From a virus, in IMG/VR virus record IMGVR_UViG_3300043313_000271, positions 1 to 33,984 of that record: a stretch of 33,984 nt of DNA. One strand, given 5' to 3'. This document shows, one piece after another, positions 6,065 through 23,149 of the stretch. The position numbers were made by a program, and so were the translations under genes. Numbering within the stretch: position 1 is the first letter of the stretch; every line of letters starts with the position of its first letter. The notes under the pieces are model-generated. The model was given only the letters and a program-made list of their open reading frames with translations. It was not told the origin of the DNA and made no database searches.

Positions 6065-6604
6065 ATGACGCACACAGATCGTCTCGCAAAAGCGATCCGC
6101 GCAACCACGGGGCTCACCTCTGAGGAGTTGCAGGAGTTACGGGCACACATAACCGCTCTCCTGCAACTAGGTCCCGGCAGCGCTGATCGTGCGGTAGCAT
6201 TGCCCGATGCACCCGAAGAATTAGTTATGATTGCGGAGCACGGCCGCAATCGAGGGGGACGTCTGGTCCCCACCACCGATCTCATGCGGGCGACGCAGTA
6301 TGACACGTTCAAGTCAAAGCTGCCTCGCTTGCGTGCATTCCTTGAACAGGTCGGATCAAAGACTGCCCAGCGCGCGTTATTCAAACTCGGGCTGGTACTG
6401 TTGGAACGCGACATGCGAACGCGCAAGCTCACGCCGTCTTACATGTCGTTCATGAATGAGGTCCACCGTATGCGTTCGCTGATCAATCGGGAGTTCCCCG
6501 GCTACGAAGCGAATGGCATGCTCAAGCTGATCATAAGAAAGGAAGACCATGTTCGGAAAGAACCAAGTAAGCGGCCCATACAACGAAAGCGGAGAACAGC
6601 TTAG
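6065..6604 (+). CDS. Hypothetical protein overlapping queE
   Basis: 179 residues from ATG 6065; only a weak ribosome binding site. Helical, with a leucine-rich N-terminus (LTSEELQELRAHITALLQLG) and a basic C-terminus (RKEPSKRPIQRKRRTA). The last 56 bases overlap the start of queE in another frame, longer than the usual 1-11 base overlaps here. The QueE start is well supported, so the basic tail may be an extension created by stop loss. Function unknown. Confidence 0.6.
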   Translation: MTHTDRLAKAIRATTGLTSEELQELRAHITALLQLGPGSADRAVALPDAPEELVMIAEHGRNRGGRLVPTTDLMRATQYDTFKSKLPRLRAFLEQVGSKTAQRALFKLGLVLLERDMRTRKLTPSYMSFMNEVHRMRSLINREFPGYEANGMLKLIIRKEDHVRKEPSKRPIQRKRRTA

Positions 6605-7265
6605 GGTCAATGAGATCTTTTACACACTGCAAGGCGAGGGCCCCGACTCCGGCTGTCCCGCTATCTTTGTTCGCTTGTCAAAATGTAATCTGCGCTGCTA
6701 CTTCTGTGACACCGAGTTCGAGACGGGCCAGGATATGCCACTGCCCATACTCATACTCGAGGTTCTCGAACTCGCGAAGGAACACGGGTGCAGGCTTGTC
6801 GTGATCACAGGGGGCGAACCCCTTTTGCAGAATATCGTGCCTTTCGTGCGACGCATGAATGAGTGCGGCATCTCCTGCTCGGTCGAGACCGCGGGCACCG
6901 TTGTGCTCCCCGAACTTTATACCGTGTTCGATCCCATGCGTTCGATCTCGGGTAACCTGATCGTGTGCAGCCCCAAGACTCCGAAGATCCACCCGGAGAT
7001 CGAACGATTGGTTGGCGCGTGGAAATATGTCGTCAAGGATGGTGAGGGTGATCAGTGGGGGCTGCCGTCGAAGTCAACGCAGGTCGTTGATCGAGACGTG
7101 ACTGTGTTCAAGCCCGTTTTCCCCGTTGTGGAGATCTGGGTCAACCCAATGGACGAGTATGACGCGGACAAGAACGAAGCGAACCTGAAGTGGGCGCGGG
7201 ACGTTGCATTGAGGCACGGCTACCGCATGGGAGTTCAATTACACAAACTGGCGGACGTTCGATAA
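6549..7265 (+). CDS. queE: 7-carboxy-7-deazaguanine synthase QueE (radical SAM)
   Basis: 238 residues, AAGGAAG before the ATG. QueE converts 6-carboxytetrahydropterin to 7-carboxy-7-deazaguanine using an iron-sulfur cluster and SAM. Cluster cysteines are C46, C50 and C53 in KCNLRCYFCDT, and the SAM-binding TGGEP lies near residues 87-91. N-terminal NEIFYTLQGEGPDSGCPAIFVR is the family signature. Length is normal. With folE and queD it makes the 7-deazaguanine core. It lies 14 kb from queD, among replication genes, which fits DNA modification better than tRNA queuosine. Confidence 0.93.
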   Translation: MFGKNQVSGPYNESGEQLRVNEIFYTLQGEGPDSGCPAIFVRLSKCNLRCYFCDTEFETGQDMPLPILILEVLELAKEHGCRLVVITGGEPLLQNIVPFVRRMNECGISCSVETAGTVVLPELYTVFDPMRSISGNLIVCSPKTPKIHPEIERLVGAWKYVVKDGEGDQWGLPSKSTQVVDRDVTVFKPVFPVVEIWVNPMDEYDADKNEANLKWARDVALRHGYRMGVQLHKLADVR

Positions 7266-9316: not shown

Positions 9317-10975
9317 ATGGCTATATCGCCCCGAGCAGTCAAGGCATTTCATGCGCGACCCCACCGCGATTACTCCCTGTGGAAAAACCTGAGCGAGGAC
9401 GACATTGACTTTAGGATGTCGAAACTAGAAGTCCGCCCGCCGATATGGAACAAGCTTCGATATGATCAACGCGTCTGCTTCGTGATCGGCGCACGCAAGA
9501 AGCGGTTCGCGTTCTTCAACGAAACGGGCACAGGCAAAACGTTCCTCTCGCTCGCGCTCATGCGTTACTTCAAACGTACAGGCGAAACGAAATGCAACCT
9601 CGTCCTCGTCCCGAACAAGATCAACAAATGGGAATGGTTGGAAGAGGGCTTTCGAAAGCACACCCCGTCCATGGACTGCGTCGTGTTGCACGGCTCGACG
9701 GAAGGCAAGTGGGCCGCACTCGAGGAGAACCCCGATGCCGACGCATTCGTGGAAACCTATATGGGCTTCGTTCGCATGTGCTGCGACCTCAAGAAGGTGA
9801 CACGCAAACGCAAAGGCAAGAAGGTCAAGATCAATAAGCTCGTACCGAACAAGAAAAAGATCCGCGCGTTGATGAAACGTTTCGACGGTGTGTACCTTGA
9901 CGAGTCGACCTATGTCAAAAACAAAGCCGCGTTGCCGTGGCGTCTCTGCAATCAATTGAGCAAGGCGGCGAACGCGTTCTTCATCCTGACGGCGACCCCG
10001 TTCGGTCGCGACGTGACAGACGCATGGGGCCAGGCTTTTCTTGTCGACCGCGGGCAGACGTTGGGCGAAACGTTGGGCCTGTTCCGCGCAGCGTTCTTCG
10101 AGGAGAAGGAAGAGTATTGGGGCGGCAAGGAATACAAACTGACGAAGATCGGCAAGCGCATGTTCAGCGAGCGGCTTGATAACGTCTCGATTGCGTACCC
10201 GGCCGACGAGACGGTGATGCCTCATCTGACGCGCGTGCCGAAGTACGCTGTGCTCCCTGAGGCGGCCGAACAATATCTCGACCGCGCCAAGGACGCCATG
10301 AAGCAGGCCAAGGGCGACTTCCAAGCCCTGAAGAACGCGTTCCTGCGACTGCGACAAATCAGTTCGGGGTTCGTCGGGTTCAAGGATGACGACACGGGTG
10401 TCCGCGCGAAGTTCGAGTTCGACACGAACCCCAAGCTCGATCTGCTCGAGGCGTTGGTGACGACGTTCAAGCCGAACCATAAGTTCATCGTGTTTCACGA
10501 GTTCCAACACTCGAGTAAGGTCATCATGGCCAAGCTCAAGGAACTGGGGATCGGGGCCGTCGCCATCAATGGCATGACGAAGAAGAGCGACGAGGCACGC
10601 GCCGCGTTCAAGAACGATCCGAAGGTGCAGGCGCTCGTGCTATCAAACTCTGCGGGCGGGTACGGCCTCAACCTTCAATTCGCGAAGTACGGTATCTACT
10701 ACGAGAGCCCGGTCGGTGCGATCCTGCGCAAACAAACCGAGAAACGTTTCGACCGTCAATACTCCCTGCACAAGACGGTGATCCTATATGACCTGATCGT
10801 TCGCGGCACGGTCGATGAAAGCATATTGCGCTTTCACGCTGAGGGTCGGAGCCTGTGGAAGGCCATTCTCAACACGGGAGCCGAGGCCGTGTTCCGCACA
10901 CCGCGCAGTGTGAAACGTCGCGAGCGTGATCAATCACACCGCAGTGTGAAACGTCGCGAACGGTTGGCAGCGTGA
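9317..10975 (+). CDS. SNF2/DEAD-like superfamily 2 helicase
   Basis: 552 residues. Superfamily 2 motifs in order: a Q-like RYDQ (48-51), Walker A NETGTGKT (68-75), Walker B YLDEST (194-199, DEST in place of DEAH), motif III TATPFG (225-230), then a second RecA-like domain with FHEFQHS, SNSAGGYGLNLQFA and the arginine-rich motif QTEKRFDRQY. Likely an ATP-driven DNA translocase used in recombination, repair or origin remodelling, as in the SNF2-type proteins of other phages. The C-terminus repeats SVKRRER twice and ends RERLAA. An AT-rich region with a DnaA box follows. Confidence 0.88.
   Translation: MAISPRAVKAFHARPHRDYSLWKNLSEDDIDFRMSKLEVRPPIWNKLRYDQRVCFVIGARKKRFAFFNETGTGKTFLSLALMRYFKRTGETKCNLVLVPNKINKWEWLEEGFRKHTPSMDCVVLHGSTEGKWAALEENPDADAFVETYMGFVRMCCDLKKVTRKRKGKKVKINKLVPNKKKIRALMKRFDGVYLDESTYVKNKAALPWRLCNQLSKAANAFFILTATPFGRDVTDAWGQAFLVDRGQTLGETLGLFRAAFFEEKEEYWGGKEYKLTKIGKRMFSERLDNVSIAYPADETVMPHLTRVPKYAVLPEAAEQYLDRAKDAMKQAKGDFQALKNAFLRLRQISSGFVGFKDDDTGVRAKFEFDTNPKLDLLEALVTTFKPNHKFIVFHEFQHSSKVIMAKLKELGIGAVAINGMTKKSDEARAAFKNDPKVQALVLSNSAGGYGLNLQFAKYGIYYESPVGAILRKQTEKRFDRQYSLHKTVILYDLIVRGTVDESILRFHAEGRSLWKAILNTGAEAVFRTPRSVKRRERDQSHRSVKRRERLAA
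10906..10963 (+). repeat. Short direct repeat at the 3' end of the helicase gene
   Basis: The string CGCAGTGTGAAACGTCGCG occurs twice, with CAATCACAC (10931-10939) between the copies. It encodes the doubled SVKRRER peptide. Related strings occur at about 886-899 in the non-coding region and at 18234-18246. CAATCACAC is also the core of the operator-like cluster at 1295-1416, so these bases may act as a protein-binding site as well as code. Confidence 0.55.
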
Positions 10976-11105
10976 ATTTCGGATTGTCCGGAAATGTTAA
11001 AATTTTAATGATTTCGGGGGTGTGGATAACGGGGACAAACCCGCAAACCCTATAAAACAAGGGCCCCCAGTTCATGCGCTATTCAATTGACCTTGTTTTA
11101 TAGGG
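10976..11105. other. Candidate replication origin (DnaA box, AT-rich stretch, inverted repeat)
   Basis: Non-coding on the + strand and strikingly AT-rich for this DNA. It holds a hairpin (10976-10995), the 12-bp palindrome TTAAAATTTTAA (10997-11008), an exact consensus DnaA box (TGTGGATAA at 11021-11029, complement TTATCCACA) and a 15-bp inverted repeat (11048-11062 with 11091-11105). A DnaA box next to an AT-rich stretch is the usual layout of an origin opened by host DnaA. A regulated promoter region is the other reading; both could be true. Confidence 0.45.
11048..11105. repeat. Perfect 15-bp inverted repeat overlapping a promoter
   Basis: CCCTATAAAACAAGG at 11048-11062 and its exact complement at 11091-11105, separated by 28 bases. 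The right arm begins at the last two bases of the -35 and fills most of the spacer of the promoter at 11087-11114. It could be a two-site operator with DNA looping, or a long hairpin. Confidence 0.8.
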
Positions 11106-11294
11106 CTTTATAATAGGGGCGTAAATCGACGTTCGCATGGCCCTCTTGCCCCGGCGTCGTTTTAAGGGGACCGACAATAACAACCCGTTGCAGCCCCTCC
11201 AATGAGCGCAGTGATTGCGGTCAGGGCAGATCAGGCGGAGACCTCGCGCGTCAATCATTGACGTGGGCAGCCGAGCATCGACTCCCTGATCCAT
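11079..11294 (-). CDS. Possible small Cys/His protein, minus strand
   Basis: 71 residues from ATG 11294, with GGAGGG nine bases upstream on the minus strand. The middle holds CPDRNHCAHWRGC, a Cys/His cluster that could bind zinc, followed by a basic stretch (PLKRRRGKRAMR). Its translation start region (11281-11305) is identical over 25 bases to that of the sigma-like gene at 20460, which supports it as a real start. However, the frame runs antisense through the strong promoter at 11087-11114. A genuine gene or a decayed duplicate are both possible. Confidence 0.45.
   Translation of the reverse strand: MDQGVDARLPTSMIDARGLRLICPDRNHCAHWRGCNGLLLSVPLKRRRGKRAMRTSIYAPIIKPYKTRSIE
11087..11114 (+). 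promoter_or_regulatory. Near-consensus sigma-70 promoter driving the ribozyme operon
   Basis: TTGACC (11087-11092), 16-base spacer, perfect TATAAT (11109-11114). This is the best promoter seen in the window. The transcript would start near 11121 and run through the first ribozyme (11310) into the small-gene array. Overlap with the inverted-repeat arm suggests repression. The host's primary sigma factor could use it without phage factors, fitting early expression. Confidence 0.75.
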
Positions 11295-11309
11295 GTTTGT
11301 TTCCCTCCA

Positions 11310-11400
11310 TATCGAAACCCCTGCGATGCGCCGACAGAGTAATGGCATCAAGCGCGGGGTCTTGCACGTGTGGCGACGTGCGACTGATGATGACAGCCAC
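11310..11400 (+). ncRNA. Hammerhead-type ribozyme, copy 1
   Basis: Core in type II order: GAA (11314-11316), stem III from A11317 to U11360 (ACCCC/GGGGU with an extended inner hairpin), C17 at 11361, stem I (UU-GCACGU/ACGUGC-GA, 11362-11383), CUGAUGA (11384-11390). Predicted cut 11361|11362. Stem II is UAUC (11310-11313) with GACA (11392-11395), one mismatch, after one extra U. Loop I GUGGC (11370-11374) complements GCCAC (11396-11400), just before GGAG. This copy has the largest stem III and would cut off the ~240-base leader. Confidence 0.82.
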
Positions 11401-11413
11401 GGAGTAAAACGAC

Positions 11414-11611
11414 ATGACCAAGAAGGTAAAGCGCTTGAAGGGATTTCATTTGCTTGGCACGATACAAACGGAGACGATGCCGTGGGTACAGCGTGCGATT
11501 GACGCGGGGCGCCCAGTCCCGAAATGGATCGCAGAGCGCAGTGCCACGGAGAAGGAGTTCGAGGAGAACATGGCGTTGCGCGAAGCAGCGTTCCCTCAAA
11601 CGAAAAAGTAA
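11414..11611 (+). CDS. Small basic protein, first gene of the ribozyme operon
   Basis: 65 residues, GGAG (11401-11404) directly after the ribozyme pseudoknot strand. MTKKVKRLKGFHLLGTIQTE, then PWVQRAIDAGRPVPKWIAER and a charged helical tail (TEKEFEENMALREAAF). No known domain. After predicted cleavage its mRNA would begin 52 bases upstream, at 11362. The stop lies one base before the next ribozyme. Possibly an early host-takeover protein, by position only. Confidence 0.7.
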   Translation: MTKKVKRLKGFHLLGTIQTETMPWVQRAIDAGRPVPKWIAERSATEKEFEENMALREAAFPQTKK

Positions 11612-11612
11612 A

Positions 11613-11677
11613 TTGTCGAAACGGCCCACGGGCCGTCTGATGCGAGTGGCTCTTGCATCACTGATGATGACAAGCCA
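11613..11677 (+). ncRNA. Hammerhead-type ribozyme, copy 2
   Basis: Stem II UUGUC (11613-11617) with GACAA (11669-11673), five pairs; GAA 11618-11620; stem III ACGGCC/GGCCGU with loop CACG (11621-11636); C17 at 11637, predicted cut 11637|11638; stem I UGAUGC/GCAUCA (11638-11660); CUGAUGA 11661-11667; extra U 11668. Loop I UGGCU (11647-11651) complements AGCCA (11673-11677). GGAG follows at 11680. Confidence 0.87.
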
Positions 11678-11690
11678 ATGGAGAATGAGC

Positions 11691-11870
11691 ATGAAGTTCG
11701 TACAAACGATTGAGCGCAGTGAGCTGTCAGTGTCGGATCATGATTTTCAAAAGATCAAGGTCGGCAACGTGTACACGTTCAAAGGCGAGCGCGTTAAGGT
11801 GATCAAGAAGATGGTCCTCTGGGTTGGAGGATCAACGGTGAAGGTTCGCAGAATGTCGAAACGGGCATAA
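11691..11870 (+). CDS. Small beta-rich protein; its last codons lie inside a ribozyme
   Basis: 59 residues, GGAG upstream. The core LSVSDHDFQKIKVGNVYTF, then VKVIKKMVLWVGG and STVKVRR, looks like a small beta barrel and resembles the protein at 15995 (shared I..G.VY.F....V.V...VKV pattern). The last residues MSKRA and the stop codon are encoded by the next ribozyme: the UGUCGAAA core gives M-S-K and the UAA is the stem III loop. Translation to the end must unfold that ribozyme. Function unknown. Confidence 0.75.
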   Translation: MKFVQTIERSELSVSDHDFQKIKVGNVYTFKGERVKVIKKMVLWVGGSTVKVRRMSKRA

Positions 11871-11919
11871 GTGCCCGTCTGATGCGAGTGGCTCTTGCAT
11901 CACTGATGATGACAAGCCA
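11854..11919 (+). ncRNA. Hammerhead-type ribozyme, copy 3 (overlaps coding sequence)
   Basis: Stem II UGUC (11854-11857) with GACA (11911-11914); GAA 11858-11860; stem III ACGGGCA/UGCCCGU with loop UAAG (11861-11878), where UAA is the stop codon of the upstream gene; C17 at 11879, predicted cut 11879|11880; stem I UGAUGC/GCAUCA (11880-11902); CUGAUGA 11903-11909; extra U 11910. Loop I UGGCU (11889-11893) complements AGCCA (11915-11919). Only copy whose core codes for protein. Confidence 0.87.
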
Positions 11920-11932
11920 ATGGAGAGTAAAC

Positions 11933-12343
11933 ATGAAAACGAAAACATTCAAAACGATCACGGAACGCCTGGACCTCACTCCTCTTGAGAAGAAGTTCAT
12001 TCCAATCGTTCAGAACGTGGTCGGCACTGTTGTTACAACGGTCGATGCCGCGGGCCCATTGTCGCAAGACTTCGAATGCACGTTCGGTGTCGTTATGACT
12101 GAATGGTCTGCGCACTTCATAATGTGCAAGGTGACGGTGACGCCCAAAGATGAGACGACCATTGACGCGTTGAAAACGATCCTCGCACGACTCGAGAAGT
12201 TCGCGACATATGATGACATGCCGTGGCGCCACGCAAACAAGTGGTGGTTGATCGGTGACGGTGACGACGCCAACGCCGTTTATTTCGAGAAGGGTTCGTT
12301 TTGTATTTGGTTGCGTGGTTGGACAGAGAACCCGCACTGCTAA
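11933..12343 (+). CDS. Hypothetical protein in the ribozyme operon
   Basis: 136 residues from ATG 11933, GGAG upstream; the longer in-frame start at 11882 lies inside the ribozyme and is rejected. Mixed alpha/beta, with VVGTVVTTVDAAGPL, a beta-rich centre (HFIMCKVTVTPKDE), a helix (LKTILARLEKF) and a Trp-rich tail (HANKWWLIGDG, FCIWLRGW). No known domain. Stop codon TAA immediately precedes the next ribozyme. Predicted leader after cleavage: 53 bases. Confidence 0.72.
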   Translation: MKTKTFKTITERLDLTPLEKKFIPIVQNVVGTVVTTVDAAGPLSQDFECTFGVVMTEWSAHFIMCKVTVTPKDETTIDALKTILARLEKFATYDDMPWRHANKWWLIGDGDDANAVYFEKGSFCIWLRGWTENPHC

Positions 12344-12410
12344 TGTCGAAACCCCCTACCAAGGGGGTCTGCAACGATTGATCCCGTTGCACTGATGATG
12401 ACAGATCAAT
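12344..12410 (+). ncRNA. Hammerhead-type ribozyme, copy 4
   Basis: Stem II UGUC (12344-12347) with GACA (12400-12403); GAA 12348-12350; stem III ACCCCCU/AGGGGGU, loop ACCA (12351-12368); C17 at 12369, predicted cut 12369|12370; stem I UGCAACG/CGUUGCA (12370-12391); CUGAUGA 12392-12398; extra U 12399. Loop I AUUGAUC (12377-12383) pairs with GAUCAAU (12404-12410) over seven bases, directly against GGAG. The cleanest example in the array. Confidence 0.92.
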
Positions 12411-12421
12411 GGAGAATGAAC

Positions 12422-12679
12422 ATGAACATCTATACCGTATATTGTAACGCCGGTCGATACGATCTCAACGCACTCGTGCAAGCGAGGAGCGCGGCAATCG
12501 CAAAGAAGAAGGTCGAGCGGTTTGTGAAAACGCATTCGTTCTTGTGCGAAAATTATCGCGCGATGTCTGCTCGCTTCGCAGACGCAGCGTTCATAAAAGA
12601 AATGGACCTTCAAAACGAGGTTCGCAAGTTGAAGCGTGGCGACGCAACGACCATCGTCGTTTATGACGAAGGCACCTAG
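12422..12679 (+). CDS. Small protein in the ribozyme operon
   Basis: 85 residues, GGAG eight bases before ATG 12422. Starts with a short beta-like segment (NIYTVYCNAGRYDL), followed by basic helices (ARSAAIAKKKVERFVKTH) and a mixed C-terminus ending VVYDEGT. No recognised domain. It is followed by two short hairpins, 12684-12697 and 12700-12713, before the next ribozyme, which no other gene of the array has. Confidence 0.7.
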   Translation: MNIYTVYCNAGRYDLNALVQARSAAIAKKKVERFVKTHSFLCENYRAMSARFADAAFIKEMDLQNEVRKLKRGDATTIVVYDEGT

Positions 12680-12683
12680 TAGT

Positions 12684-12713
12684 GACCCCCTTGGGTCCCG
12701 TGGGAGCACCCAC
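12684..12713 (+). repeat. Two adjacent short hairpins between gene and ribozyme
   Basis: GACCC-CCTT-GGGTC (12684-12697) and GTGGG-AGCA-CCCAC (12700-12713). They lie between the stop at 12679 and ribozyme copy 5. They may protect the mRNA 3' end or act as a weak attenuator within the operon; no T-run follows. Confidence 0.5.
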
Positions 12714-12714
12714 A

Positions 12715-12784
12715 TGTCGAAACCCCCGGTCCAAACGGGGGTCTGTCACGATTGATCCCGTGGCACTGATGATGACAGATCAAT
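12715..12784 (+). ncRNA. Hammerhead-type ribozyme, copy 5
   Basis: Stem II UGUC (12715-12718) with GACA (12774-12777); GAA 12719-12721; stem III ACCCCCG/CGGGGGU, loop GUCCAAA (12722-12742); C17 at 12743, predicted cut 12743|12744; stem I UGUCACG/CGUGGCA (12744-12765, one U-G pair); CUGAUGA 12766-12772; extra U 12773. Loop I AUUGAUC (12751-12757) pairs with GAUCAAU (12778-12784). The different stem III loop and inner pair keep the fold. Confidence 0.9.
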
Positions 12785-12795
12785 GGAGAATGAAC

Positions 12796-13002
12796 ATGAC
12801 ACATGAACAGGCACTCGCACACGTACTCGATATAGCGTCGCGGTTCGGCGAAAATGTTGAAGAAGGTTTTGCGCAACGAGTGCAAGCCTCTGACAGTGAC
12901 GAAGTCTGTGCCTACAACGCAGATCAATCGGGCGCCGACTTAGAGGAAGTGATTTTAGTTCGCGATTTGTGGCGCGCGGTCGAAGTGTTGCAAAAGAAAT
13001 GA
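12796..13002 (+). CDS. Small acidic protein in the ribozyme operon
   Basis: 68 residues, GGAG upstream. Mainly helical and acidic: MTHEQALAHVLDIASRFGEN, then SDSDEVCAYNADQSGADLEEV and the C-terminal helix LVRDLWRAVEVLQKK. No known domain. The stop is two bases before the next ribozyme. Predicted leader 52 bases. Confidence 0.7.
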   Translation: MTHEQALAHVLDIASRFGENVEEGFAQRVQASDSDEVCAYNADQSGADLEEVILVRDLWRAVEVLQKK

Positions 13003-13004
13003 AA

Positions 13005-13071
13005 TGTCGAAACCCCCTACCAAGGGGGTCTGGTACGATTGGTTATCGTGCCACTGATGATGACAAACCAA
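13005..13071 (+). ncRNA. Hammerhead-type ribozyme, copy 6
   Basis: Stem II UGUC (13005-13008) with GACA (13062-13065); GAA 13009-13011; stem III ACCCCCU/AGGGGGU, loop ACCA (13012-13029); C17 at 13030, predicted cut 13030|13031; stem I UGGUACGAU/AUCGUGCCA (13031-13053); CUGAUGA 13054-13060; extra U 13061. Loop I UGGUU complements AACCA (13066-13070); both strands differ from the other copies yet still match. Confidence 0.9.
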
Positions 13072-13084
13072 ATGGAGAAACAAA

Positions 13085-13402
13085 ATGGCAGACCATGCGA
13101 AGGTATATCGCAATCAGCGATTGCTCACCAAGGAGCACCCAGGTACGATGCAGCCGAAAGCGGGCCGCAAGTATTACACGCTCCTTGAACGTACAGCCGG
13201 CGAGTTGTGGGCCCCTCAGTTCGGGGACTACGACCGAAAGGTTGTTGAGCAGGAGCAACGCGATATGAAAAACTCCGGGTCCTTTACGAAGGGCACGAAG
13301 TTCCTGATCATTGAAACGGGCACGCGACAATATCAAGTGTCCGACGCAATCAGGTTGCTCAATGACGAGTTGGCCCCGATTGCATTGAAGGAGAAGAAGT
13401 AA
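13085..13402 (+). CDS. Hypothetical protein in the ribozyme operon
   Basis: 105 residues, GGAG upstream. MADHAKVYRNQRLLTKEHPG, then a beta/alpha region with YYTLLERTAGELWAPQFGDYD, and TKFLIIETGTRQYQVSDAI near the end. No recognised domain. It heads a group of four genes (13085-13852) not separated by ribozymes; its stop overlaps the next start (TAATG). Confidence 0.7.
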   Translation: MADHAKVYRNQRLLTKEHPGTMQPKAGRKYYTLLERTAGELWAPQFGDYDRKVVEQEQRDMKNSGSFTKGTKFLIIETGTRQYQVSDAIRLLNDELAPIALKEKK

Positions 13403-13572
13403 TGAGTGATATCAGAAAGGTGCAGGCGTCGATTGAACGTCTGCACGGCAATTGCGAACGTGACCGCCTGCGCAAGTATGCGTCGTTTACGGCGTGGCAA
13501 CTTGCACGTCGCGAGGAGCGTTCGGGTCTTGACCCCTCGCCCCTGTTGAAGAAGGAGGACCACGAGCGATGA
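13402..13572 (+). CDS. Small basic helical protein
   Basis: 56 residues, AAGGAG eight bases before ATG 13402. Rich in Arg and Glu: MSDIRKVQASIERLHGNCER, then LRKYASFTAWQLARREERSG and a tail KKEDHER. Predicted helical, no known domain. Coupled on both sides (TAATG before, ATGA after). Too short for most automatic gene calls, but spacing and codon use are those of its neighbours. Confidence 0.65.
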   Translation: MSDIRKVQASIERLHGNCERDRLRKYASFTAWQLARREERSGLDPSPLLKKEDHER

Positions 13573-13721
13573 ATACGATCTACTACAAGGTCGATTGGCG
13601 ATTGTTGAGTGATGAAGCGTTGCAACACTACTTGAAGGGTACCAAGATGCAACGCATCAGCGCGAAGGCTGAGATCGAACGTCGCGCAAAGGTAAAAGCA
13701 TGTACAAACTCACAGACGTAG
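13569..13721 (+). CDS. Small protein, unknown
   Basis: 50 residues from ATG 13569 (ATGA overlap); GAAGGAGG lies upstream at 13551-13558. MNTIYYKVDWRLLSDEALQH, then LKGTKMQRISAKAEIERRAK. The last 22 bases overlap the following gene. Unknown function. Confidence 0.6.
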   Translation: MNTIYYKVDWRLLSDEALQHYLKGTKMQRISAKAEIERRAKVKACTNSQT

Positions 13722-13852
13722 AAGAGACGGTCACGGAATTCCTCAAGAAGGAGTTCCCTGAAATACTGAGCGACGTTGAGAGTTCGGGTGTGGCGTCAGA
13801 GATCGCAGTTGTGATTTTCGACATGCTCACGGGCGATGACGACGACGAATAG
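13700..13852 (+). CDS. Small acidic protein, unknown
   Basis: 50 residues from ATG 13700 with AAAGG upstream. Acidic: YKLTDVEETVTEFLKKEFPE, then a hydrophobic helix IAVVIFDML and the tail TGDDDDE. Its TAG (13850-13852) provides the first two bases of stem II of ribozyme copy 7, so a terminating ribosome would cover that ribozyme. Confidence 0.65.
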   Translation: MYKLTDVEETVTEFLKKEFPEILSDVESSGVASEIAVVIFDMLTGDDDDE

Positions 13853-13916
13853 TCGAAACCCCCTACCAAGGGGGTCTGTGCCGGGTGGCTCCCGTCACAC
13901 TGATGATGACAAGCCA
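13851..13916 (+). ncRNA. Hammerhead-type ribozyme, copy 7
   Basis: Stem II AGUC (13851-13854) with GACA (13908-13911), three pairs; GAA 13855-13857; stem III ACCCCCU/AGGGGGU, loop ACCA (13858-13875); C17 at 13876, predicted cut 13876|13877; stem I UGUG-C-CGGG/CCCG-U-CACA (13877-13899, one mismatch); CUGAUGA 13900-13906; extra U 13907. Loop I UGGCU (13886-13890) complements AGCCA (13912-13916). Confidence 0.87.
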
Positions 13917-13929
13917 ATGGAGAAGCAAC

Positions 13930-14496
13930 ATGATGACCGAACTTTGCGAAACACTCGCAGTCAACCATCCCGAGGAAGATATTTTCATTCGGCAGGTGAC
14001 CATGATCCCACACGAAGGGCATCTGATCATTTACGAAGTGGGCGACGCGGACAGCAAGTACCATGTCGCAAATGTGGTCATGGGCATGATCAAATGGGCA
14101 CACCCAATTGATTATGACGTGACGCGTCTTGCAGAACTGACGGGCTCAAAGCCCCTTGGCGAAATCCTCGGAGCAACGGAGAACGTTGGGTCCTGCGACC
14201 CGGGGCCGATGATCCTTTGGGACAAGACGCAAAAGACGTGGCACACTGACGTGCCGAAGGTTGGGCGATACAGCGTGCGGCGCATGGGCAAGCGTATGCC
14301 CTTCGCGGCGTACCTCAATGGTAAACAGATCGCTGCTGAGGAGCACACTAACGTCGAAGTCGTGAAGCGATCAGTTGAGCGTCGCATCCGCGAAGCCCAT
14401 CGGATCAATGAAGTGACGAAGCCGGGTTCGCCCGGCCCGCGATTGTTGCAGCAGTTGTTGCCGCGCGTTGGTAACAGCCAATTGAACAAGCGCTAA
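13930..14496 (+). CDS. Hypothetical protein in the ribozyme operon
   Basis: 188 residues from ATG 13930 (a second ATG follows at once), GGAG upstream. Acidic N-terminal half (LAVNHPEEDIFIRQVTM), middle with a Gly/Pro loop (GSCDPGPMILWDKTQKTWH), then a beta stretch (RYSVRRMGKRMPFAAYLNGK), a basic helix (VEVVKRSVERRIREAHR) and a flexible end. No known domain. The longest unknown product inside the ribozyme array. Overlaps the next start by one base. Confidence 0.7.
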   Translation: MMTELCETLAVNHPEEDIFIRQVTMIPHEGHLIIYEVGDADSKYHVANVVMGMIKWAHPIDYDVTRLAELTGSKPLGEILGATENVGSCDPGPMILWDKTQKTWHTDVPKVGRYSVRRMGKRMPFAAYLNGKQIAAEEHTNVEVVKRSVERRIREAHRINEVTKPGSPGPRLLQQLLPRVGNSQLNKR

Positions 14497-14603
14497 TGCC
14501 CTTCTCACCCGAGTCGATGAAGCGCAAGTTCATGCTAGTCTTTGCAATCAAAATTACGATAGCGGGATTGTCTTACTACTTTTCCCGCTGGCCGATCATG
14601 TGA
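14496..14603 (+). CDS. 35-residue single-span membrane peptide
   Basis: ATG 14496 overlaps the previous stop (TAATG). MPFSPESMKRKFMLVFAIKI, then TIAGLSYYFSRWPIM: a basic start, one ~18-residue hydrophobic segment, then RW. This looks like a one-pass inner-membrane protein. No strong ribosome binding site, so translation is probably coupled. Its stop is one base before ribozyme copy 8. Small membrane peptides of phages often act on host membrane processes; no specific role is shown. Confidence 0.6.
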   Translation: MPFSPESMKRKFMLVFAIKITIAGLSYYFSRWPIM

Positions 14604-14604
14604 G

Positions 14605-14670
14605 TGTCGAAACGCCCTACCAAGGGCGTCTGATGCAGGTGGCTCCTGCATTACTGATGATGACAAGCCA
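14605..14670 (+). ncRNA. Hammerhead-type ribozyme, copy 8
   Basis: Stem II UGUC (14605-14608) with GACA (14662-14665); GAA 14609-14611; stem III ACGCCCU/AGGGCGU, loop ACCA (14612-14629), a compensatory C-G to G-C change relative to copies 4, 6, 7 and 9; C17 at 14630, predicted cut 14630|14631; stem I UGAUGCAGG/CCUGCAUUA (14631-14653); CUGAUGA 14654-14660; extra U 14661. Loop I UGGCU (14640-14644) complements AGCCA (14666-14670). Confidence 0.9.
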
Positions 14671-14683
14671 ATGGAGAAGCAAC

Positions 14684-14935
14684 ATGATGAAAGCAATAAG
14701 CAGTACAGACTTTGGCTGCCCGGACCTATCGTGGAACGTGCGGGCCCCTGTGGAACTTTGCGTCGTGTTGACGCAAGACGACGCGGGCAAGTACGCGTGC
14801 TACTGCGGCATCGTCCCCAAAAACATGACCGATGGGCATAAGCAGCATCGCGTTATGGGCTCGGGTTCGAAGTTGGCATTCCGTCGCGCGGTCGTGTTTT
14901 TCCCCGACCTCCATATTGAGGAGTACAGGGCGTGA
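14684..14935 (+). CDS. Small protein in the ribozyme operon
   Basis: 83 residues, GGAG upstream. MMKAISSTDFGCPDLSWNVR, then a beta-type stretch VELCVVLTQDDAGKYACYCG and FRRAVVFFPDLHIEEYRA. Four cysteines. No known family. It overlaps the next GTG start as GTGA. Confidence 0.68.
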   Translation: MMKAISSTDFGCPDLSWNVRAPVELCVVLTQDDAGKYACYCGIVPKNMTDGHKQHRVMGSGSKLAFRRAVVFFPDLHIEEYRA

Positions 14936-15378
14936 CATGGTTTGATGACGGGGCGCTGATCTCGGACGAGGAGAACCAGCGTCGCGTGTTCAATGCGGCC
15001 CAGAAGGGCGGCACGTTCACAGTATGCACGGTCGGCACGCGTGTCGGGGAGTTTGATAGCACACTCGTCTATCGAACGTACCCGCAGGCGTTGGCCGTGT
15101 TCCTGCACATGTTCAACCAACAGCGCAGGCCTATTATGTATTGTGCCGACGCGACCGCGGGGGTCTTCTTGCTCCCGCGTCGCTCGTATCAAACCGATGA
15201 CAAGCGATGGGTCTCTGTCAATGACGCGACGGCAGACGCAGCGCAATCGCTACTCGACGCATGGTGCAGGGGGATTGGCATCACAAACCAACCCCTCGCT
15301 CCCATGATCAACACGATCCGAACAGTCAGACGACGAACTCGCGAGCGGTTACCCGTTCGCAAACGTGAAAGGTTGTAA
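14932..15378 (+). CDS. Hypothetical protein ending in a doubled RERL motif
   Basis: 148 residues from GTG 14932, GAGGAG upstream. The folded part (about 1-125) is mixed alpha/beta (VFNAAQKGGTFTVCTVG, ALAVFLHMFNQQRRPIMYC). The last 16 residues are basic, RRRTRERLPVRKRERL, with RERL at 137-140 and at the very C-terminus (145-148); nearly the same doubled string occurs in the protein at 8689. Since the rest of these two proteins is unrelated, the tail looks like a separate functional tag. Confidence 0.7.
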   Translation: MTWFDDGALISDEENQRRVFNAAQKGGTFTVCTVGTRVGEFDSTLVYRTYPQALAVFLHMFNQQRRPIMYCADATAGVFLLPRRSYQTDDKRWVSVNDATADAAQSLLDAWCRGIGITNQPLAPMINTIRTVRRRTRERLPVRKRERL

Positions 15379-15380
15379 CA

Positions 15381-15998
15381 GTGAAGAAGAAAGCGAAACA
15401 GGCGAACCCGTACAAGGCGGGCAGTCGCAAGGCCGAGATCTATGACGCGTTCATGGAAGCAGGCGGAGGCGACGCAGGGTTAAAGGCTGCGACCAAGGAG
15501 GCGACGGCGAAGGGCAAGAAGGTGATCAAGCCCGGAACCATCAAGTCATGGGCGAGCATGTGGCTCAAGGGCGTGACGAAGCCCGAGGCCAAGGAGAACG
15601 ACGACAAGCCCGCAAAGGTCGTGGTCGAACGCGACAAGGGCTACCACCCTGACTTCAAGTACACGACGCGACAACAGGCCGACCGACACCACGAGACGTT
15701 ATGTACGCGGTCGGGCCTGAGGCCACACGCGTTCCACGTGCTCGAGGACGGCGGCATGTTCGCCGTTGTGCCCGCGCACTACAAGCCGGGTGGCCCCGTG
15801 CCCACGTTCGAACGCGGGGACATCGTGTATGATGCAATGATTGCGAACAGCAAGGCGAAGGTCATCGAAGCAGGACCCGAGCAAACGTTGGTGCGATACG
15901 TCACGGAGCGCAAGACCGGTCCACGCGAAGAATGCGTGATCAATCGGTATCTCGTCAAACTCCCTGACCCAAAGAAGAAGGAGCGTGTCCGACTATGA
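15381..15998 (+). CDS. DNA-binding-type protein related to the 8905 gene
   Basis: 205 residues from GTG 15381, AAAGG upstream. Basic start, then a helical domain (about 10-65) ending KVIKPGTIKSWASMWLKG, resembling the folded part of the minus-strand basic protein at 8905-9180. The C-terminal part (about 95-205) is another fold with many His/Tyr residues and beta stretches (FAVVPAHYKPGGPVPTFERG). It ends KKKERVRL, a variant of the RERL tail. Probably two-domain, nucleic-acid binding by inference. Confidence 0.7.
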   Translation: MKKKAKQANPYKAGSRKAEIYDAFMEAGGGDAGLKAATKEATAKGKKVIKPGTIKSWASMWLKGVTKPEAKENDDKPAKVVVERDKGYHPDFKYTTRQQADRHHETLCTRSGLRPHAFHVLEDGGMFAVVPAHYKPGGPVPTFERGDIVYDAMIANSKAKVIEAGPEQTLVRYVTERKTGPREECVINRYLVKLPDPKKKERVRL

Positions 15999-16207
15999 AA
16001 CCGATACCATTTAGTTTCGGCGAAGGCTTCGCCGACTTCGAAGTTCTTTCAATCGACCGAGACGACTACAATCGCATTGATACGGGTCAGGTCTACGAGT
16101 TCCGCAATCACCCCGAAGCACAGGTGAGGGTGGCGACGATTGTAGACAAGGCGATCACACGGGGCGATTGTTTAGTCAAAGTGAAATGGGTGACGGTGCG
16201 TGAATAG
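15995..16207 (+). CDS. Small beta-rich protein, relative of the 11691 gene
   Basis: 70 residues, AAGGAG upstream, ATGA overlap with the previous gene. FADFEVLSIDRDDYNRIDTG, then QVYEFRNHPEAQVRVATIVD and LVKVKWVTVRE. The order of beta segments and the I..G.VY.F pattern match the protein at 11691, so the two are probably diverged copies. Its TAG supplies the first bases of stem II of ribozyme copy 9. Function unknown. Confidence 0.7.
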   Translation: MKPIPFSFGEGFADFEVLSIDRDDYNRIDTGQVYEFRNHPEAQVRVATIVDKAITRGDCLVKVKWVTVRE

Positions 16208-16273
16208 CCGAAACCCCCTACCAAGGGGGTCTGCCACGTTGAGCAATCGTGGCACTGATGATGGCTGCTCAAC
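16206..16273 (+). ncRNA. Hammerhead-type ribozyme, copy 9 (compensatory stem II and pseudoknot)
   Basis: Stem II AGCC (16206-16209) with GGCU (16263-16266), replacing the UGUC/GACA of other copies by covarying bases. GAA 16210-16212; stem III ACCCCCU/AGGGGGU, loop ACCA (16213-16230); C17 at 16231, predicted cut 16231|16232; stem I UGCCACG/CGUGGCA (16232-16254); CUGAUGA 16255-16261; extra U 16262. Loop I UUGAGC (16239-16244) pairs with GCUCAA (16267-16272). Strongest single proof of the fold. Confidence 0.92.
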
Positions 16274-16287
16274 AGGAGAAACCAAAC

Positions 16288-16647
16288 ATGATAAAGTTCA
16301 AAGCGAAGCATCTGCGCGCCTCTTACGTGGGCTACTCAATGCACCTGACAGGTAATGACGGTGAGTGTGAGTTGATCATTGTCACGTCATGGGGCCAGGA
16401 CGGGCGTACCCGTCTTGTGATCGTGGGCGCAGAGTGTGACGGCAGCGTGGTCGTGTTGCATGAAGGCAAGGCCCGCGTCACTCTCGCGCAAGTCGTCACG
16501 ACCATTGATAACGTTGTGAAGAAGTGGTCGCAGGCGGGGACGAAGCCGAACGTCGAAGAACAGTTGTGGCTCGACAAGCAGCGCGAGAAGCTGATTGTTC
16601 GCCTCGACAAACTCTGGAACCACGGCGTGACAGCGAAGGCGGCCTGA
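16288..16647 (+). CDS. Hypothetical protein in the ribozyme operon
   Basis: 119 residues, AGGAG upstream. N-terminal beta-rich half (KFKAKHLRASYVGYSMHL, ELIIVTSWGQDGRTRLVIVG, SVVVLHEGKARV), then a helical C-terminal half (VTTIDNVVKKWSQAG, QLWLDKQREKLIVRLDKLW). No recognised family. Next gene starts one base after its stop. Confidence 0.7.
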   Translation: MIKFKAKHLRASYVGYSMHLTGNDGECELIIVTSWGQDGRTRLVIVGAECDGSVVVLHEGKARVTLAQVVTTIDNVVKKWSQAGTKPNVEEQLWLDKQREKLIVRLDKLWNHGVTAKAA

Positions 16648-16648
16648 C

Positions 16649-16849
16649 ATGATCGGACCGCACGACTACGGGCGGCCTTGTCCCTGCGGTTCGGGCAAGA
16701 CCTCCTTCTGGCAAAAGGATGCACGTGGCATCGAGTTGTGTCGCACGTGTGACGATTGCCACGACGAGAAGATGAAACGATATCGTCCTGAGGTTCTCGC
16801 GAACTCTCAGTACGAGGCTGACGAACCAATCGAACCTGAGGAGTATTGA
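16649..16849 (+). CDS. Small SEC-C-like zinc protein
   Basis: 66 residues. Starts MIGPHDYGRPCPCGSGKTSFW: the PCPCGSGK string is the signature of the SEC-C metal-binding motif, followed by C-x2-C-x2-C (CRTCDDCHDEK) for the remaining ligands. Acidic C-terminus (ADEPIEPEEY). SEC-C-type modules bind zinc and often mediate protein contacts (as in SecA). Probably a zinc-bound adaptor; partner unknown. No strong ribosome binding site of its own. Confidence 0.7.
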   Translation: MIGPHDYGRPCPCGSGKTSFWQKDARGIELCRTCDDCHDEKMKRYRPEVLANSQYEADEPIEPEEY

Positions 16850-16851
16850 GT

Positions 16852-17061
16852 ATGGGTTACCATGATGATGACGACGAGATTGACGGCGTAGGGTTCGCAG
16901 ACCCCGGCGGCCGTTCAGCGTTGCGTGCGGCAACGAAGTCCAATCCGCGCAATCTCCCCTGTCCGAACTGCGAGCGACCCAATCGGCTCACGCCGATTGA
17001 CGTGCAGCGCGGATATCAATGCGACGCCTGCGCCGATCAAGCAGAGCGAGGAGGCTACTAG
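16852..17061 (+). CDS. Small zinc-ribbon protein
   Basis: 69 residues from ATG 16852, which has GAGGAG at good spacing; a TTG at 16846 is also in frame. Acidic start (GYHDDDDEIDG), then CPNC and CDAC separated by about 21 residues (CPNCERPNRLTPIDVQRGYQCDAC), a standard four-cysteine zinc ribbon. Probably nucleic-acid or protein binding. Confidence 0.68.
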   Translation: MGYHDDDDEIDGVGFADPGGRSALRAATKSNPRNLPCPNCERPNRLTPIDVQRGYQCDACADQAERGGY

Positions 17062-17062
17062 C

Positions 17063-17239
17063 ATGGCGACTATGTTCCGCATTATGCACGTCAACCCGAC
17101 CGACTACGAAATGAGCGACGACCGCGAGAAGCTGCAAGTGATCGCGGACGAGCTCAATAAGGACGCCCGGGCGCAGGGCGACACAAAGTCGCGTTGGATC
17201 GTGATCCACGACGTTGCGGTTGGCGATCTGTTCAAGTAA
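17063..17239 (+). CDS. Small protein, unknown
   Basis: 58 residues, AGGAGG nine bases before ATG 17063; the longer in-frame start at 16925 is inside the previous gene. MATMFRIMHVNPTDYEMSDD, then REKLQVIADELNKDAR and WIVIHDVAVGDLFK, a short alpha/beta chain. No known family. Its TAA directly abuts ribozyme copy 10. Confidence 0.65.
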   Translation: MATMFRIMHVNPTDYEMSDDREKLQVIADELNKDARAQGDTKSRWIVIHDVAVGDLFK

Positions 17240-17306
17240 TGTCGAAACGGGCCCACGGGCCCGTCTGACCGGGAGTGGCTCTCTCGGCACTGATGATGAC
17301 AAGCCA
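17240..17306 (+). ncRNA. Hammerhead-type ribozyme, copy 10
   Basis: Stem II UGUC (17240-17243) with GACA (17298-17301); GAA 17244-17246; stem III ACGGGCC/GGCCCGU, loop CACG (17247-17264); C17 at 17265, predicted cut 17265|17266; stem I UG-CCGGGAG/CUCUCGG-CA with one bulged A (17266-17289); CUGAUGA 17290-17296; extra U 17297. Loop I UGGCU (17276-17280) complements AGCCA (17302-17306). Last copy; no further one was found to the right edge. Confidence 0.88.
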
Positions 17307-17322
17307 AATGGAGAAAACGACA

Positions 17323-18279
17323 ATGACAAGCGCAGTAGAGAAGATGGCCTATGCAGGCCAGGTCCCGTGGCATGGTCTTGGTGAACCTGTTTCGTCAAAG
17401 CTTACCGCCGAGCAAATGCGCAAGGCGGCGCATCAAGACTACACGGTGTCGAAGCGTCAGGTCTACTTCACTGACGAGCAAAAGAAACAGCACGCGATCA
17501 AGAACAAGTTCGCACTCGTTCGCGATAGCGACGACAAGATGCTGAGTATCGTGGGCTCGGTCTACAAGCCCGTGCAAACGAAACAGGTCTTCGCGTTCTT
17601 CCACGACTTCGTCGCGGCCGCGAAGATGCAAATGGAAACGGCCGGCTCCTTGTGGGACGGCAAATATGTTTGGGCCCTCGCCCGCGTCGTCGGCCAAGAC
17701 TTCGCAATCGGCAAGAAGGACGAGATGCGCAACTACCTTTTGTTGTGCAGCCCGTTTGAACACGGCAAGGCCCTGATCATGCAGTACACCAACGTCCGCG
17801 TGGTGTGTTGGAATACGTTGAGCATGGCAATCGGCGCGAACTTGATGGGCAAGGGCAATGCGTTCCGCATGCCGCACACCAAGAACTTCGAGGTCGAGAA
17901 GGAAGAGGCCAAGCGCGTGCTCGGCCTGATCACGGAGCAGGGCAAGCAGTTCAAGGAAGCGGCTGCGATCCTCGCGAAGTCAAAGGCAACCGATGCACAG
18001 GCCGAGAAGTTCTTTCTCGACGTGTTGAAGAAGAGCCCCGACGCCGCGCGAACTCCCGTCGCCCTGCCGAAATACAAGGCGGCGTTAGAGTTCGCACCGG
18101 GGGCCATGCTCCCGTCAGCGAAGGGCACATGGTGGGGCGCACTGAACGCGGTCACCTATGTGGTCGATCACGAGCAGGGCCGCACCCGGGACTCCGCGTT
18201 GAAGAATGCGTGGCTCGGTAACCAAGCGAACGTGAAACGTCGCGCCCTCAAGCTCGCACTCGACGCGGTCAAGAAGTGA
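17323..18279 (+). CDS. DUF932 / phage-plasmid-like protein
   Basis: 318 residues, GGAG upstream; start 17323 lies after the ribozyme. The N-terminus (VEKMAYAGQVPWHGLGEPVS) carries the WHGLG string typical of the DUF932 family found in phages and plasmids. Further family-like segments are VGSVYKPVQTKQVFAFFHDF and TNVRVVCWNTLSMAIG. C-terminal helices are basic (VKRRALKLALDAVKK). The family is widespread but its biochemical role is not established. It is the first large gene after the ribozyme array. Confidence 0.82.
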   Translation: MTSAVEKMAYAGQVPWHGLGEPVSSKLTAEQMRKAAHQDYTVSKRQVYFTDEQKKQHAIKNKFALVRDSDDKMLSIVGSVYKPVQTKQVFAFFHDFVAAAKMQMETAGSLWDGKYVWALARVVGQDFAIGKKDEMRNYLLLCSPFEHGKALIMQYTNVRVVCWNTLSMAIGANLMGKGNAFRMPHTKNFEVEKEEAKRVLGLITEQGKQFKEAAAILAKSKATDAQAEKFFLDVLKKSPDAARTPVALPKYKAALEFAPGAMLPSAKGTWWGALNAVTYVVDHEQGRTRDSALKNAWLGNQANVKRRALKLALDAVKK

Positions 18280-22555: not shown

Positions 22556-23149
22556 ATGCAGGGATTCCCCGACGATGACGACATGGACGCGATAAGGTCC
22601 CTCTTGCAGTTACTCGATCCCGACGCCGACCGCGAGGGCCTACGCGAAACGCCCGACCGCGTGCTCAAGGCGTGGAAGGAGTGGACTGCAGGCTATCACG
22701 TTGATACCGACCTACTCCTCAAGACATTCAAAGACGGAGCAGACTCATATGACGAAATGGTCTTTGTGGGCTGCATCCCGTTCTACTCAACGTGTGAGCA
22801 TCACCTCGCCCCCTTCTTCGGTGTGGCTCATGTCGGTTATATCCCAAGCGGTAGCATCGTGGGGTTATCGAAGCTCCCGCGATTGGTTGACGCTTTTGCA
22901 CGTCGTCTATCTGTACAGGAGCGAATTACAACGCAGATCGCAGAGACGTTGGTGAAGGTGCTCAAGCCGAGAGGGTGCGGCGTCGTGTTGCAGGCCAGGC
23001 ATATGTGCATGGAGTCCCGCGGCATCAATCGTCCCGGGACCGTGACGACAACGGCCGCAATGCGAGGAGCACTCAAGACCGAGCCCGACGCTCGCGCAGA
23101 GTTCTACAAAATGATCGACCAAGCAAAGGGGGTGGGCATTGGCTGCTAG
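22556..23149 (+). CDS. folE: GTP cyclohydrolase I
   Basis: 197 residues, AAAGGA upstream. Catalyses GTP to dihydroneopterin triphosphate, the entry step to 7-deazaguanines. The family core is intact: FYSTCEHHLAPFFG with zinc ligands Cys80 and His83, VGLSKLPRLVDAFARRLSVQERIT, and third ligand Cys151 in RHMCMESRG. Length is typical. Overlap of 11 bases with the DpdA-like gene links precursor supply and DNA modification. A role in folate supply alone is less likely given queD and queE. Confidence 0.95.
   Translation: MQGFPDDDDMDAIRSLLQLLDPDADREGLRETPDRVLKAWKEWTAGYHVDTDLLLKTFKDGADSYDEMVFVGCIPFYSTCEHHLAPFFGVAHVGYIPSGSIVGLSKLPRLVDAFARRLSVQERITTQIAETLVKVLKPRGCGVVLQARHMCMESRGINRPGTVTTTAAMRGALKTEPDARAEFYKMIDQAKGVGIGC

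Follow-up and report, generated by a model that had tools for sequence, protein, structure and literature searches.

Ten hammerhead elements in a single phage operon

What are ten similar non-coding elements doing among the small genes of one phage operon? This question is raised by the IMG/VR virus record IMGVR_UViG_3300043313_000271, of which positions 1 to 33,984 (the whole stretch of DNA analysed, hereafter the window) were examined here. A preliminary description of this DNA had proposed that the elements are type II hammerhead self-cleaving ribozymes that divide the operon. We consider it likely, with a probability of roughly 0.8, that they are ten functional cis-cleaving hammerheads, which process one phage transcript into a leader and about ten messenger RNAs (mRNAs). 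This reading rests on sequence, structure, covariation, placement and evolutionary persistence, from which we infer cleavage in vivo, protection of the RNA ends and insulation of the genes.

A cmscan search of the window against all of Rfam 15 returned ten matches to RF02276 (Hammerhead_II), all on the + strand and confined to positions 11310-17309, with scores of 37.2-46.6 bits (gathering score 37) and E-values, relative to all of Rfam, of 1.2e-6 to 3.2e-4. From the 5′ end these are H1 (11310-11402, 43.1 bits, predicted cut after 11361), H2 (11614-11679, 38.7 bits, cut after 11637), H3 (11854-11921, 37.2 bits, cut after 11879), H4 (12344-12410, 46.6 bits, cut after 12369) and H5 (12715-12784, 45.6 bits, cut after 12743), followed by H6 (13005-13072, 39.0 bits, cut after 13030), H7 (13851-13918, 41.3 bits, cut after 13876), H8 (14605-14672, 39.3 bits, cut after 14630), H9 (16206-16273, 46.1 bits, cut after 16231) and H10 (17240-17309, 43.1 bits, cut after 17265). 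An independent structure scanner recovered the identical ten elements and none on the - strand of the window. With its stricter version, dinucleotide-shuffled windows averaged 0.03 hits each, and a chance origin was rejected on this ground. Scoring with the Rfam model had been suggested in the preliminary description as a check on the type II assignment, and all ten elements lie above the threshold; the ten 5′-hydroxyl (5′-OH) positions that it had predicted agree exactly with the cuts placed by the scanner.

Each element consists, in order, of the stem II 5′ strand (usually UGUC), GAA, the stem III hairpin, a C, the cut and the stem I hairpin, followed by CUGAUGA, a U, the stem II 3′ strand (GACA), a pseudoknot strand, the Shine-Dalgarno sequence (SD, GGAG) and AUG. 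The core and cut motifs CUGAUGA, GAAA and GUC are present in all ten copies, and stem II has 3-4 base pairs (bp) in most of them; H9 carries the variant AGCC/GGCU. The stems had been listed correctly before, as had the type II fold with stems I and III closed and stem II open. From the single fold said to be shared by all ten, H1, which has no gene directly upstream, deviates by a stem II of only 2 bp beside the core and by a long insert in stem III. In all ten copies loop I can also pair over 5-8 bp with the strand immediately upstream of the SD, a pseudoknot that had escaped the preliminary description and that shows complete compensatory sets (UGGCU/AGCCA, UUGAUC/GAUCAA, UUGGUU/AACCAA and UUGAGC/GCUCAA). 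The pseudoknot contact of loop I is critical for fast cleavage (Perreault et al. 2011, PMC3088659).

Ribozymes occupy all non-abutting junctions

The array divides an operon of 18 small genes on the + strand (11414-17239), delimited by gene calls and junctions. Nineteen genes were called from 11414 to 18279, the last being a DUF932 protein gene, which gives 18 junctions. Nine of these are gaps of 62-187 nucleotides (nt), each holding a ribozyme; at the nine others the genes overlap or are 1-2 nt apart, and no ribozyme is present. H1, the remaining ribozyme, is found downstream of the region's only strong promoter, within a non-coding leader. Upstream stop codons are mostly found at -1 to +4 nt from stem II or within the stem III loop, as in H3, where the stop codon of the upstream gene is inside that loop. 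Across seven arrays the median leader between cut and start codon is 53.5 nt (64 leaders). The 52-57 nt reported earlier for the window are borne out by this measurement, and the leaders are indeed uniform; this uniformity is largely a by-product of the ribozyme directly adjoining the SD.

The operon is headed by a sigma70-like promoter (TTGACC-16-TATAAT, 11087-11114, + strand), which agrees with the consensus at 11 of 12 bases, better than any other site in the region; three relatives (G012, G004 and G035) have a comparable promoter in this position. Inside the array, promoter-like matches on the + strand are weak (9/12) and near the number expected by chance, and no terminator-like site was found on that strand. 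We rejected on these grounds the idea that the repeats themselves serve as promoters or terminators. An inverted repeat of 18-19 nt (CCCTATAAAACAAGG / CCTTGTTTTATAGGG) surrounds or overlaps the promoter in the window (11045-11108) and in G012 (L068:11685-11749), where its arms occur in swapped order; it is a possible operator.

Between the promoter and H1 lies the non-coding leader (11121-11309, + strand), with no gene between the end of the helicase gene at 10975 and H1. It shares the stretches AAGGGGACCGAC, GTTGCAGCCCCTC, TGACGTGGGCAG and ACTCCCTGATCCATGTTTGTTTCCCTCCATATCGAAAC with G012 (L068:11755-11985), and cleavage at H1 would free it as an RNA of about 240 nt. A pyrimidine strand complementary to the SDs of the array (CCCUCCAU, CUCUCCUCUCC, CUCCUCCUCCUA) was seen above the first ribozyme in four arrays (window 11280-11402; L068:11950-12081; the first elements of L071 and L074), with empirical p values of 0.045, 0.047, 0.003 and 0.003, the first two coming from related phages. 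It was not clear in G004, nor across all first elements, and we keep this possible anti-SD strand as a lead.

The array is flanked by two conserved landmarks on the + strand, a DNA helicase gene on the left (9317-10975; phrog_62, E 2e-70) and, as the first gene after H10, the DUF932 protein gene on the right (17323-18279; PF06067, E 7e-46; phrog_1221). The 17 small operon genes tested had no PHROG or Pfam family match (some of them searched in one library). Elsewhere in the window, QueE-like (6549-7265), GTP cyclohydrolase (22556-23149) and queuine tRNA-ribosyltransferase-like (23139-24422) genes suggest a pathway for 7-deazaguanine modification of DNA.

The array persists in related phages while its genes and sequences turn over

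The helicase is common to four relatives of the window phage (G012, G004, G017 and G003; 44-88% identity), and ribozyme arrays lie beside it in all of them, with 8 copies in G012, 12 in G004, 15 in G017 and at least 8 in G003, where the array runs to the end of the contig. A DUF932 gene also follows one of the ribozymes in G012, G004 and G017, the G012 protein being 89% identical to that of the window, and the fragment G014 has five copies, one of which precedes the DUF932 gene. Many of the small genes between the ribozymes are without a detectable relative in the other arrays, and the dividers persist.

In the 58 ribozymes of this phage group, 99.1% of stem III and 98.0% of stem I positions are paired, compared with 77.5% and 62.2% after the 3′ strands were permuted within each phage; these percentages are biased, because the scanner demanded some pairing in the stems. 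It made no such demand of the pseudoknot, which is also longer than in any permutation (mean length 5.4, against at most 5.0). Several pair types occur at each stem position, so that compensatory change keeps the pairing. Among 67 copies, 66 have CUGAUGA and 66 have a C at the cut, whereas the stem sequences are free to differ. When the window and G012 are compared, ribozymes that precede orthologous genes resemble each other no more than those before non-orthologous ones, and hence the pairing outlasts the letters. Concerted evolution was also considered: sharing of stem III is weakly higher within phages than between them (0.73 vs 0.69, permutation p 0.04), and stem I shows no such excess.

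The arrays extend beyond this group. A strict core pattern found 38 viral stretches, and relaxed pattern searches led to loci with at least 418 distinct type II hammerheads, at least 363 of which precede an SD and an open frame, and single partial loci hold as many as nine clustered copies, all among the matches listed. Nine ribozymes are present in G023, whose compared genes show no detectable relation to those of the window. In another viral contig (L101:4316-5070), four hammerheads follow each other at 200-300 nt, a spacing from which the units appear to be single very small genes. Arrays are also present in the cultured Streptomyces phages Celia (10 ribozymes by Rfam, 11 by the scanner), Salutena (12 by both) and Diane (nine by Rfam), and the question of their function is therefore directly testable. 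In Celia, 12 annotated gaps reach 55 nt or more, and 10 of them hold a hammerhead. The annotated start of Celia gene 71 (MN062705.1, 45908-46426) falls 9 nt past the predicted cut, inside the ribozyme, and is probably misannotated, since the ribozyme is followed at the usual spacing by an SD and an ATG. In the phage collection nothing matched the array region of the window at the DNA level, and two distant relatives in culture, Vibrio phage KF4 and Edwardsiella phage ZHS, had no RF02276 match. A 26-nt match in cyanophage PSS2, which is likewise free of RF02276 matches, was rejected, as it falls within a coding gene.

A tRNA-like element takes the place of the hammerhead in other Streptomyces phages

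Streptomyces phages of the same subfamily that are without hammerheads (Endor1, Yasdnil, Hydra, phiScoe2, Provolone and Chucky) hold at their junctions a different element, a tRNA-like minihelix. It is built of a 5-bp acceptor-like stem, an 11-nt linker with GGCA and a 6-bp stem with a T-loop (UUCGAGU), after which come ACU and, as a rule, another hairpin upstream of the SD; the element has no sequence in common with the hammerhead. Arrays of 5-12 copies stand before small-gene SDs in L303:3529-8599 (Endor1, MT711978), L304 (Yasdnil, MN096379), L305 (Hydra, KT124229) and, among others, the IMG/VR loci L324, L340, L354 and L386. In 19 distinct copies all 11 pairs hold and seven of them covary on both sides; the covariation score was reached by none of 500 shuffles. 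The copies had been selected for near-complete pairing, which biases the percentage paired and leaves the variety of pair types unaffected. ARAGORN called no tRNA in these elements, and no Rfam family matched them above threshold, the sole echo being a sub-threshold match to mascRNA. The latter is an RNA released by RNase P, and we predict that the minihelix is a processing site for RNase P or RNase Z.

Among 27 pairs of orthologues, one from a hammerhead phage and the other from a tRNA-like phage, an element stands before both genes in 8, before neither in 12 and before one in 7 (one-sided Fisher p ~0.02, calculated by hand on pairs that are not independent). For six genes, an OCR-like antirestriction gene among them, the element upstream is a hammerhead in one phage and tRNA-like in another. 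The Celia, Salutena and Diane loci contain no tRNA-like element, and of 70 locus strands with at least three hammerheads, chosen by pattern, only two have so much as one tRNA-like hit. This exchange at orthologous junctions amounts to a natural control: because tRNA-like elements precede orthologous genes in hammerhead-free relatives, it suggests that the processing of the junction is itself what is selected. We lean slightly towards the broader view that accessory-gene operons of phages carry a general junction-processing code with interchangeable devices, hammerhead or tRNA-like minihelix, in which the cutting of every cassette into an end-capped mRNA of its own, and not the ribozyme, is under selection.

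Proposed mechanism and alternative explanations

We propose that the promoter at 11087-11114 gives rise to one long transcript, which would be cut co-transcriptionally to yield the leader and about ten mRNAs, each carrying one to four genes. The unit of this arrangement is a stop-ribozyme-SD module, in which each ribozyme is wedged between the upstream stop codon and the next SD. The upstream mRNA would end in the stem III hairpin, with a 2′,3′-cyclic phosphate expected, and the downstream mRNA would begin with the stem I hairpin and an expected 5′-OH, braced by the loop I pseudoknot that ends before the SD. Type II is the one hammerhead permutation of the three that would give closed hairpins at both new ends. 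What the phage would probably gain is insulation: every small-gene cassette would have a fixed leader and protected ends of its own, so that gene turnover in this variable region would leave the expression of the neighbours undisturbed. A ribosome that terminates on the adjoining stop codon would sit over the 5′ part of the ribozyme, and translation of the upstream gene may therefore delay cutting.

Three observations count against this proposal. An extra U stands between CUGAUGA (A9) and stem II in 10/10 window copies and is absent from the Rfam consensus. An additional nucleotide in the core of viroid hammerheads was reportedly the subject of work by De la Pena and Flores in 2001. The relative G035 (63% helicase identity) has related genes and no array, its only element being a degenerate H1-like one (L069:8566-8645, core CCGAUGA, 22 bits), and the arrays are therefore dispensable and can be lost; flanks of this element (AUAAACAA/UUGUUUAU) could extend its stem II. 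Finally, the predicted accessibility of the SD shows no consistent change on cleavage, for which reason an SD switch was rejected for H2-H10.

The extra U, the pseudoknot directly before the SD and the SD-complementary strand above the first ribozyme in four arrays would all fit elements acting mainly as structured leaders, which control translation or mRNA stability with little or no cleavage. However, the core and the cut nucleotide are near-invariant (66/67 each) while the stems vary, a pattern to be expected only under selection for catalysis; ribozymes can do without the extra U, which is absent from 7/9 G023 copies, and the predicted accessibility of the SD is not consistently altered. 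We regard structured leaders of this kind as very unlikely. Even less probable, in our view, is that the elements are mobile or recombination modules shuffling small-gene cassettes, with self-cleavage as a by-product. Some genes have moved between the window and G012 (13930 matches G012 15862, and 13402 matches G012 12380), and the lack of greater likeness between ribozymes before orthologous genes would agree with such shuffling, but stems that differ among copies would make poor recombination sites, pairing and core are preserved, and stem III sharing within phages is only weakly in excess (0.73 vs 0.69, p 0.04). The tRNA-like element, without common sequence, makes processing a more likely shared property than sequence.

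Tandem hammerheads on the same strand also yield 5′-OH and cyclic-phosphate ends of the kind joined by RtcB-type ligases, and RtcB is encoded by many bacteria (9/14 control genomes). Successive cuts might thus release gene-length RNAs that are ligated into functional circles, as in viroids and retrozymes. Here, however, every unit is a different coding gene with its own SD, the units differ in length, and the array does not present the combination of repeated unit-length RNA and ligation step that marks retrozymes and viroid-like RNAs. No RtcB or RNA_ligase family match was found in nine array-bearing records, some of them fragments, although a host ligase is possible; Perreault et al. sought circular or spliced products and detected none (PMC3088659), and the ribozymes are replaced by tRNA-like elements in related phages. 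Functional circles are accordingly a highly improbable outcome. In summary, the division of one transcript by cleavage at its junctions is the reading we retain, and the role as operon dividers is well supported by the Rfam scores, the covariation, the junction rule, the conserved location and the tRNA-like exchange.

Comparison with known systems

Ever since hammerheads were discovered in the DNA of bacteria and phages in 2011, their role there has been counted among the open questions. Judged by its sequence, each element of the array is an ordinary member of RF02276 with a lineage-specific extra U: the matches are full-length, with the core, the three stems, the type II topology and the pseudoknot, and differ from the family in the extra U after CUGAUGA, a stem II mostly of 3-4 bp and the stem III insert of H1. 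In synthetic insulators of the RiboJ type, a hammerhead placed just upstream of the ribosome-binding site trims the 5′ leader and leaves a hairpin. The position of the ribozyme is the same here, and the stop-ribozyme-SD module would be a natural counterpart of these devices; unlike them, the array is natural, type II and tandem, and lies between operon genes, where we infer the insulation. Theta ribozymes of gut phages, with a hepatitis delta virus (HDV)-like fold, stand beside tRNAs and are proposed to process tRNA 3′ trailers (PMC10879173). They resemble the array as phage self-cleaving ribozymes acting on their own transcripts, and differ in their fold and in a proposed role other than the division of mRNA.

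The closest precedent is that of Perreault et al. 2011 (PMC3088659), who noted that hammerheads in prophages are often found on either side of one gene or a short block and may split long phage transcripts, and who found that a three-ribozyme prophage cluster cleaves in vitro and in Escherichia coli. The principle of transcript division is hence not new, and the preliminary description, which spoke of a distinct gene-expression system, overstated the novelty while its operon-divider role finds support. No open-access paper was found that reports the following points, the subscription literature being mostly outside the search. What appears to be new is the scale, the strict junction rule, the stop-ribozyme-SD module and the conserved location, together with the array-bearing cultured Streptomyces phages and the exchange with an undescribed tRNA-like element. 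Both systems have several same-strand hammerheads around single genes or short blocks in phage DNA, and transcript division was proposed for both. The clusters tested earlier have three copies, compared with 8-15 in one operon here, where all are type II, a ribozyme stands at every non-abutting junction, and one location is kept over a phage group, with tRNA-like exchange in relatives of the cultured phages. With 8-15 copies, one at nearly every non-abutting junction, such arrays are hard to explain except as devices for transcript processing.

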